DNA from: Amniculibacterium aquaticum
Lineage (GTDB): Bacteria; Bacteroidota; Bacteroidia; Flavobacteriales; Weeksellaceae
DNA: 38,426 nt
Reading direction: 5' to 3'
Assembly: GCF_003852705.1 (NCBI RefSeq)
Contig: NZ_REFA01000022.1
Location: forward strand, 1 to 38,426
The position numbers were made by a program, and so were the translations under genes. The notes beneath the pieces are model-generated. The model saw nothing but the letters and a program-made list of their open reading frames with translations. It was not told where the DNA came from and made no database searches. Every line of letters starts with the position of its first letter. Position 1 is the stretch's first letter. This document shows positions 1,971 to 24,133 of the stretch, one piece after another.

Positions 1971-2003
1971 TTTGCTTTCAATGGTTGAAAATTCCTACTT
2001 TTG
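1971..2003 (+). promoter_or_regulatory. Bacteroidota promoter for the purM leader
   Basis: TTTG (1971-1974), 21 bases, then TACTTTTG (1996-2003) matches the TTTG/TAnnTTTG consensus. Transcription should begin near 2008, giving a leader of about 230 nt before purM. Confidence 0.65.
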
Positions 2004-2014
2004 CAACAGTAAAA

Positions 2015-2098
2015 ATGATCAACTTGAACAGAAATTTTCAATATTATGTTGCTGATATCATCCAAAATATTGGGCATATATCATGCGCGAAAAAATAA
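2015..2098 (+). CDS. Possible 27-codon leader ORF upstream of purM
   Basis: An ATG about 11 nt after the -7 box opens a small ORF beginning MINLNRNFQYYVAD and ending AKK, with its TAA only 6 nt before the terminator stem at 2105. The purC leader also opens with ATGATYAAC directly after its promoter. No run of a single amino acid suggests a classical amino-acid attenuator. It may be a translated leader peptide, or just leader RNA that happens to be open. No Shine-Dalgarno site is seen. Confidence 0.3.
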   Translation: MINLNRNFQYYVADIIQNIGHISCAKK

Positions 2099-2104
2099 AA
2101 CAGG

Positions 2105-2134
2105 GCCGACAACTGAAAGATTGTCGGCTTTTTT
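2105..2134 (+). terminator. Intrinsic terminator in the purM leader
   Basis: GCCGACAA (2105-2112) pairs perfectly with TTGTCGGC (2121-2128) across an 8-nt loop and is followed by six T residues. It lies between the promoter at 1971-2003 and the purM start at 2236, with no other gene to terminate except the short leader ORF. It is therefore a likely attenuator. Confidence 0.8.
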
Positions 2135-2181
2135 ATTGAAGTAAATTGACGGAAAAGTTTGAAATAAATCTATTTAAACCC

Positions 2182-16110: not shown

Positions 16111-16118
16111 TATTTTTG
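16111..16118 (+). promoter_or_regulatory. -7 box of the purC leader transcript
   Basis: TATTTTTG matches TAnnTTTG and is followed by CATCATG, so the ATG at 16123 is 4 nt from the final G, about where transcription should start. No clear TTG was found 19-22 bases upstream. Confidence 0.55.
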
Positions 16119-16122
16119 CATC

Positions 16123-16407
16123 ATGATTAACATCCAAATTGGATATCGTATCAAAAAAGGATCAACATTCCATTGTTGGATTTTAAATTGTCTGAAACCT
16201 CATATTTCAGAAAGTTTGACAACAGATAAATTGGTTGAGCATAAAAAAGTAAATCACATGAAAAAAACGGAGGTTTTTCTCATAAATAATGCAAAAGATT
16301 TCAAATGGATCGTGGAAGAAATTTTCATGATGGTTAAATACAACACAGGGGATTTTGCCCTAAAACAACTGCACCGGAATTGTATAAATTCCGGTCTTGT
16401 TATTTAA
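16123..16407 (+). CDS. Possible leaderless 94-codon ORF in the purC leader
   Basis: The frame opens MINIQIGYRIKKGSTFHCW at the expected transcription start and runs 94 codons to a stop inside the tail of the terminator at 16373-16405. Its last codons encode the terminator stem, which makes full-length translation questionable. I recognise no family. The DNA also holds several hairpins: TCTGAAA/TTTCAGA near 16190-16210 and AAAAAC/GTTTTT near 16265-16279. Two readings are possible: a small protein, or a structured 5' leader controlling purC. The shared ATGATYAAC opening with the purM leader favours a regulatory role. Confidence 0.35.
   Translation: MINIQIGYRIKKGSTFHCWILNCLKPHISESLTTDKLVEHKKVNHMKKTEVFLINNAKDFKWIVEEIFMMVKYNTGDFALKQLHRNCINSGLVI
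16373..16405 (+). terminator. Intrinsic terminator in the purC leader
   Basis: ACCGGAATT (16373-16381) pairs perfectly with AATTCCGGT (16387-16395) over a 5-nt loop, followed by CTTGTTATTT. It lies 33 nt before purC, downstream of the only evident promoter, as in the purM leader. Confidence 0.75.
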
Positions 16408-16438
16408 AATAGAATATAAAAATCAATAAAAAGTAAAA

Positions 16439-17158
16439 ATGGAAAAAGGACAAATGCTCTACGAAGGGAAAGCGAAACAAGTTTTCGAAACCAACAATCC
16501 CCACGAAGTTATCGTACGATACAAAGACGATGCTACGGCCTTTAATGCACAAAAAAAAGGTCAGGTTGACAAAAAAGGAGAGTTGAACAACGCCATCTCT
16601 ACCCTTATTTTCGAGTATCTTCAGGAGAAAGAAATCCCAACGCATTTTATCAAGCAACTTGATGAAAGAGAGCAATTGGTAAAAAAAGTAGATATTATCC
16701 CTTTAGAAATGGTGGTAAGAAATTATTCTGCAGGTTCTATGGCTCAGAGATTGGGTGTTGAAGAAGGTATAAAATCTCCAGTAACCATTTTTGATATTTG
16801 TTATAAAAAAGACGAATTAGGAGATCCATTAATCAACGATCACCACGCTGTTTTCTTGGGAGCTGCCACTTATGAAGAGTTGGATGAAATGTATGAATTG
16901 ACCGATGTCATCAACGAGATCCTTATCGATCTTTTTGATAAAATGAACATCATCTTGGTTGATTTTAAAATTGAATTAGGAAAAACCCACGACGGAGAAA
17001 TTGTACTGGCCGACGAAATCTCTCCAGATACTTGCAGACTTTGGGACAAAGATACCATGAAGAAATTGGACAAAGACCGTTTCAGAAGAGATCTAGGCGA
17101 AGTTACAGAAGCGTATGAAGAAATTTATAACCGTTTGAAAAAAGTATTGAACAAATAA
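16439..17158 (+). CDS. purC: Phosphoribosylaminoimidazole-succinocarboxamide synthase
   Basis: Joins CAIR and aspartate with ATP to give SAICAR. The 239-residue protein shows the PurC signatures [11 protein letters not shown] (N-terminal nucleotide-binding strand), [31 protein letters not shown] near residue 90, and the C-terminal [20 protein letters not shown] near 182-202. The length is that of the short bacterial form. It forms an operon with purF, whose ATG is 19 nt after this stop. AAAAAGTAAAA precedes the ATG. The leader contains an intrinsic terminator, so expression probably depends on read-through or on a promoter I cannot see in the 33-nt gap. Confidence 0.97.
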
Positions 17159-24012: not shown

Positions 24013-24088
24013 GGTAGCCTCGTCCGACTGTCCGCTGTATCTTTTGTGCCAAGGCTTTTCCCTAGGCTTACAAAAGGATGCCGCTACC
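24013..24088. repeat. GC-richer structured element, nested inverted repeats
   Basis: GGTAGC (24013-24018) is complementary to GCTACC (24083-24088). Inside, CTTTTGT (24041-24047) pairs with ACAAAAG (24070-24076), and the stem continues with GCC/GGC and AGG/CCT around a 6-nt loop (24055-24060). The segment is clearly richer in GC than its surroundings and is open in one frame, which could be mis-annotated as an N-terminal extension of the next gene. It could be a dispersed repeat, a small mobile-element trace or a structured RNA. I have an unverified impression that similar sequences recur in related genomes. Confidence 0.45.
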
Positions 24089-24133
24089 ATTCGGGCTGGT
24101 ACAAAAAAAGAGAGATCTTCAAAAAAACCACAC

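Follow-up and report, generated by a model that had tools for sequence, protein, structure and literature searches.

We know of no account of how purine synthesis is controlled in Bacteroidetes. Purine and PRPP riboswitches stand before purine or one-carbon genes. The pfl (ZTP) riboswitch likewise stands before such genes (PMC2864571), a position shared by the leaders described here, and Bacteroid-trp is listed in the same source. In Escherichia coli, repression by ribosomes is almost complete for a terminator a few base pairs past a stop codon and is lost beyond about 30 bp (PMC4824070), and pyrBI exploits this repression of a terminator for its control (PMC5021804). For Flavobacterium psychrophilum, strong clues to leader-peptide attenuators before amino-acid operons have been described (PMC9723704, section 19). 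No report of a leader ORF at purine genes of Bacteroidetes was found in open-licence PMC papers.

The window analysed here is the whole stretch of 38,426 nt from Amniculibacterium aquaticum (contig NZ_REFA01000022.1, positions 1 to 38,426, forward strand). A leader with an ORF stands before purM and another before purC (Table 1), and the purM leader is the stronger finding of the two. The purC leader precedes purC-purF, and the gene on its 5' side encodes endonuclease I with a secretion tail.

Table 1. Features of the purC and purM leaders, in coordinates of the window
Feature	Position	Strand	Basis
TATTTTTG, -7 box, main promoter type of Bacteroidetes	16111..16118	+	Motif scan; consensus and place (-12 to -5) from PMC9723704
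purC leader ORF, 94 codons, ATG 4 nt behind the box	16123..16407	+	ORF list; predicted start at +1 by published spacing
9-bp hairpin within the final ORF codons, terminator-like, weak T tail CTTGTTATTT	16373..16395	+	
purC (SAICAR synthetase), gene served by the leader	16439..17158	+	PF01259, E 1.2e-88
TACTTTTG, box of the purM leader	1996..2003	+	Motif scan
purM leader ORF, 27 codons, MINLNRNFQYYVADIIQNIGHISCAKK; stop 6 nt 5' of the terminator	2015..2098	+	
purM leader terminator, GCCGAC...GTCGGC + T6	2105..2136	+	

Parts of the purC leader

The initial annotation had described a TAnnTTTG box with an ATG right behind it, a 94-codon ORF and a 9-bp hairpin before purC, and all three were recovered. 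The ORF opens with ATGATTAAC, and an open frame of 93 codons behind its ATG is rare in shuffled sequence (P 0.001). TAnnTTTG is a common motif, with 54 occurrences in the window against 51.9 expected, so that alone it is uninformative and becomes telling only through its place. On the forward strand between 15544 and 18719 the scan gave no TAnnTTTG other than the purC leader box, and thus no second consensus box between the hairpin and purC.

The stem has 9 bp, four of them G-C pairs, and a loop of 5, and it is followed by a tail (CTTGTTATTT) without a clean T run, whereas the purM terminator has TTTTTTATT. Around the purC leader three terminator-like sites were counted in 601 nt against a mean of 0.2 (sd 0.6) in shuffles, two of the three being one palindrome (16373-16395) counted on both strands. 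The hairpin exceeds chance expectation. Used as its own pattern, the sequence gave 1 match against 0.03 expected, which means only that it does not recur within the window. The further hairpins that had been listed for this leader did not hold up: the whole leader folds with z -1.99 (2 of 100 shuffles as stable), and once the terminator stem is removed (16123-16368) z falls to -0.75, with 41 of 200 shuffles equally stable. The extra hairpins are no more than chance provides.

No Rfam family, riboswitches included, matched the purC or purM leader at the gathering cutoff, and at E<=5 only chance matches far below cutoff appeared, the best for the purM leader being STnc240 (28.7 bits) and Thr_leader (23.1 bits), each with a cutoff of 55. 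The sole gathering match in the window is a Flavo-1 RNA on the reverse strand (24017-24101; 53.4 bits, cutoff 42).

Relatives and coding character of the purC leader ORF

Among 319 other genomes of the family, the 94-codon ORF found three weak matches (E 8.8e-4, 0.0033 and 0.0086 per genome), viral, plasmid and phage collections gave none, and the genome_contigs search returned one match of 11 residues. None of these is convincing, and the ORF appears to be an orphan. Its codon-use score is -0.05, a value that 25% of shuffles reach, whereas gene pieces have a median of 0.22. A single-sequence fold of its product gave a pLDDT of 50.7. The longest run of one residue in the product is 2.

The leader is missing in the sister species G001 of the same genus. 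There about four ORFs (L084 2354-4049), one of them restriction-like by eye, lie between an endonuclease gene of 71% identity and purC. No homologous promoter was recognised at the purC gene of G001, the alignment being matched or beaten by 78 of 200 shuffles, and a search for purC in G002, the remaining member of the genus, gave no match. When DNA was searched against 59 genomes, relatives matched only the region of the purC start (16402-16458), in G001 and G027, plus short pieces elsewhere. At other purC loci an ORF on the same strand ends at most 154 nt from purC in 27 of 29, often purL or DUF3307-like by eye.

Predicted leaderless start

The sigma-A box of F. psychrophilum is placed at -12 to -5, and leaderless transcripts make up 5.5% of the mRNAs with a mapped start (PMC9723704); among the 5' UTRs of Bacteroides thetaiotaomicron, about 3.7% fall below 10 nt (PMC7366714). 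Because the box is published at -12 to -5 and the gap at purC is 4 nt, the ATG of the purC leader is predicted to lie at +1 and the mRNA to be leaderless.

The spacing is not confined to this locus. Among 102 box-linked ORFs of at least 150 aa, the gap was 4-5 nt in 25, 14-33 nt in 60 and something else in 17; here the first M was taken as the start and the loci were partly chosen by such patterns, which makes the share of gap 4-5 too high. Gap 4-5 is a separate class of box-linked ORFs. In the genome of A. aquaticum itself, TAnnTTTG-N4-ATGAT occurs at 12 sites and the reversed pattern at 1. One of the 12 is the purC leader, and the others begin five ORFs of at least 109 aa (by eye prfB-, recF-, ABC- and queD-like, and one unnamed), one ORF of 84 aa and five very short ones.

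Similar arrangements at purC in other genera

The 420 nt on the 5' side of purC were scanned at 70 loci, that is 57 of 57 in a first set and 13 of 17 in an extra set, in which four regions were unparsed. A box followed after exactly 4 nt by ATGAT[AT] and an ORF was present in four of the 70 regions, which belong to four genera: the window (G000), G014, G026 and G004. All four boxes lie at least 100 nt upstream of purC, and the ORFs have 94, 42, 84 and 38 codons, opening with MIN, MIA, MIA and MIT, respectively. Judged by the published spacing of the box, all four are predicted to start at +1. The remaining six rows of the scan had gaps between box and start of 3, 8, 12, 12, 17 and 21 nt; two of them, L133 and L210, look by eye like upstream genes. 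The recurrence at purC was spotted post hoc, after looking.

A hairpin with a T tail lies within the leader ORF in three of the four (G000, G004 and G026), and no terminator was found in the purC leader of G014. The ORF of G004 spans a hairpin of 12 pairs (-16.5 kcal/mol) with a T run. That of G026 spans a weak one of 8 pairs (-5.9 kcal/mol), also with a T run, and continues beyond the start of purC. The G004 stretch is more stable than shuffles (z -2.53), and the G026 stretch, folded with its hairpin cut off, is not (z +1.43). Within 300 nt on the 5' side of purC, terminator-like sites were found in 6 of 57 regions, the three leader-bearing ones together with L019, L020 and L126, so such sites are not limited to leaders of the box-ATGAT type.

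By eye, the four leader peptides are alike in their first two residues only, and searches with the ORF of G026 gave weak matches only, many with stops. Since the peptides are unlike and G004 and G026 are the sole representatives of their genera in the genome set, common descent and convergence would look the same in this comparison. In the minimum-energy folds of G004 (L219 1837-1855) and G026 (L220 1641-1674) the AUGAUA... start of the ORF pairs with a stretch 10-30 nt downstream. This pairing would hide the start codon; it is missing from the centroid fold of G026, and the window has no such local hairpin.

The purM leader

In the window the purM leader spans 2004-2136. Box, ORF and a terminator of the form GCCGAY...GTCGGC-T occur at 23 of 30 purM loci, the window included, and seven are without the terminator motif. 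The 23 were selected by the motif GTCGGCTTTTT, and of their common features only the invariance of GCCGA, which holds across all 23 aligned leaders, is free of that choice. More distant relatives contributed 13 further purM regions, 10 of which were parsed. Nine of the 10 have no such terminator; the tenth (L138) has a similar leader whose hairpin is different, ACCGAT...ATCGGT, and whose 25-codon ORF ends within the first arm of that hairpin.

Of 316 family genomes, 238 were matched at E<=0.01 by a covariance model (R1) built from 14 purM leaders; about 20 of the 238 gave more than one match and the others a single one. The best 30 matches all lie on the 5' side of purM. For 20 genomes the match was compared with the known place of purM, and 19 agree by coordinates, G022 being the one that does not; many of these 20 helped to build the model. 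The purM leader is real and conserved.

The 52 purM leaders collapse to 41 distinct ones; L114, one of the 30 model matches, was unparsed for the ORF. All 41 contain an ORF of 23-32 codons that begins 11-27 nt behind the box, with TTG as the start codon in 20, GTG in 11 and ATG in 10. Its stop lies -8 to +12 nt from GCCGA in all 41 and 5-7 nt away in 31. This frame is open in 41 of 41. Read over the same span, one of the other forward frames is open in none and the second in 10 (0 and 2 in 16 representative leaders). Choosing, as was done, the ORF whose end is closest to the usual spot gives this frame an advantage; the control frames show that open frames are uncommon there.

Families of purM leader peptides are visible. 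Over 138 pairs pS was 0.36 and pN 0.27, with pS above pN in 103; the differences by codon position were 860, 835 and 903, and the closest pairs had no excess of pS. Strong synonymous constraint on the peptide was looked for and not found, the bias being weak. Selection seems to act less on the peptide than on whether an ORF is present and where it ends. The longest run of one residue is 1 or 2 in 40 of the 41 peptides, and L070 has LLL, its start codon included.

Beyond the terminator we claim no conserved structure. RNAalifold gave two-sided change in 1 of 16 pairs (alignment A2) and in 0 of 7 (A1), and the 5' arm of a stem within the ORF shifts register between sequences, by eye; single leaders do fold this stem (mean z -1.21; 14 of 23 below -1). 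No competing antiterminator was found. An A-rich stretch is visible by eye on the 5' side of the terminator in alignment A1, and it is a guess that this may be an ATP-responsive pause.

Two further observations concern the region behind the purM leader terminator. In the window a second hairpin, AGTACCTTG...CAAGGTACT (2182-2212), lies between the terminator and purM, and by eye it is also present in L049, L050 and L053-L055. In 11 of the 52 leader loci the terminator is followed within 120 nt by a box TTTGAAATAAA.

The two leaders compared

The initial annotation held that the two leaders share promoter, opening and terminator in the same order. The order of promoter, ORF, terminator and gene is indeed the same, and a distal promoter and a hairpin-bearing leader are present at purC; gap, ORF length, place of the stop and sequence differ. 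The start lies 4 nt behind the box at purC and 11 nt behind it at purM, the ORFs have 94 and 27 codons, and the stop codon is behind the hairpin at purC and in front of it at purM. Only the purM leader has a predicted untranslated 5' part, a stop before the terminator, a strong T run and a model match in 238 of 316 genomes. The purM model scores 119 bits at purM of the window, and its 16 matches at E<=10 do not include the purC leader. When the two leaders are aligned directly the result is borderline, with 10 of 200 shuffles scoring as high. The purC leader is not a copy of the purM leader, and the design is common only as a plan.

A common origin of the two leaders is not borne out, nor is the single signal that had been proposed for both clusters. 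A lack of similarity between the two leaders in any relative had been named in advance as counting against the initial annotation; it is seen in the window, and relatives were compared through the covariance model only.

Possible mechanism and alternatives

We tentatively suggest, at somewhat below an even chance, that the purC leader is a leaderless transcript with an orphan 94-codon ORF and a weak intrinsic terminator in its last codons, working as a coupling attenuator. We observe its parts, an ORF length that is rare by chance, no later box before purC and a like plan in three other genera; its transcription start, translation, termination and signal are our inference. The transcript would begin at or beside the A of the ATG. 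While a ribosome translates the ORF and stays close to RNA polymerase, the hairpin would be blocked and transcription would enter purC-purF; where translation lags or fails, the hairpin could form and part of the transcripts would end on the 5' side of purC. The purM leader would be a separate device of the same elements, whose leadered ORF stops shortly before the terminator. As both leaders have the terminator near the ORF, translation of the leader should favour read-through and a lagging ribosome should favour termination.

Codon use and T tail are weak and relatives are missing, which makes another reading almost as likely: the ORF would be a small orphan gene that happens to lie before purC, carries its own weak terminator and may be cargo of a variable slot, and purC would be expressed by plain read-through with nothing sensed. 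The occupation of the same slot by other genes in G001 fits such a gene, as do the missing convincing relatives and the atypical codon use. The like leaderless ATGAT[AT] start at purC in three other genera, two of them with the hairpin within the ORF, argues against it. It is clearly unlikely, in our view, that the leader is instead a riboswitch or other noncoding structured RNA with an accidental ORF. Codon use that is not gene-like and the clear terminator-like hairpin would agree with that; the absence of any Rfam match above far sub-threshold level, the folding no better than shuffles without the terminator stem, the absence from the sister species and the improbable length of the open frame speak against it. 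The initial annotation had favoured a noncoding leader on the grounds that the last codons encode the stem. This argument is unsupported. All 41 distinct purM leaders are open up to the terminator, the purC leader ORF of G004 spans its terminator too, and an ORF running over the terminator is what a coupling attenuator requires.

Both leaders combine promoter, ORF, terminator and a purine gene, and G000 and G004 carry both, which could suggest a single regulatory family answering to one purine signal. We hold this to be very unlikely in view of the missing match of the purM model at purC, the borderline alignment, the opposite placing of stop and hairpin, the different gap from box to start and the small share of genomes (about 20 of 238) with more than one model match, the rest having one. 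Least probable of all is that the palindrome serves as an operator bound by a protein instead of as a terminator. Its perfect 9 bp and weak T tail would suit an operator, but its core is present as a single copy in G000 and was not found in G001 or G002 with at most one mismatch allowed, so no regulon is seen.

To return to the coupling attenuator, a wider and more doubtful proposal is that purine operons of the family may be run by two separate devices of this kind, one widespread at purM and a scattered, leaderless one at purC. The purM ORF would be leadered and end about 6 nt before the terminator, without amino-acid codon runs, and the purC ORF would run through the terminator. If so, purine genes would read the closeness of ribosome and polymerase, perhaps as set by ATP, GTP or initiation on leaderless mRNA.

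Comparison with known systems

The closest likeness is to pyrBI of E. coli, where the leader ORF (pyrL) overlaps or adjoins the terminator and a close ribosome prevents the hairpin (PMC5021804, PMC4824070). The same geometry was found here, with the purC hairpin within its ORF and the purM stop near GCCGA. The leaders differ from pyrBI in serving purine rather than pyrimidine genes and in the predicted leaderless start at purC; a nucleotide-dependent pause is only conjectural here. With the trp, his and Bacteroid-trp (RF01692) attenuators they share a short ORF, hairpins and a terminator before a biosynthetic operon. They are unlike them in that the purM peptides (40 of 41) and the purC ORF have no residue run above 2, no codon run for a product amino acid being found at purM or purC, and no competing antiterminator was found. 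From the purine, PRPP and ZTP riboswitches they are set apart by reaching only sub-threshold scores in Rfam. A leader ORF without telling codon runs, placed 6 nt from a terminator and present in much of the family, makes a clean case for sensing of nucleotides or of coupling, to which the purC leader may add a leaderless version.
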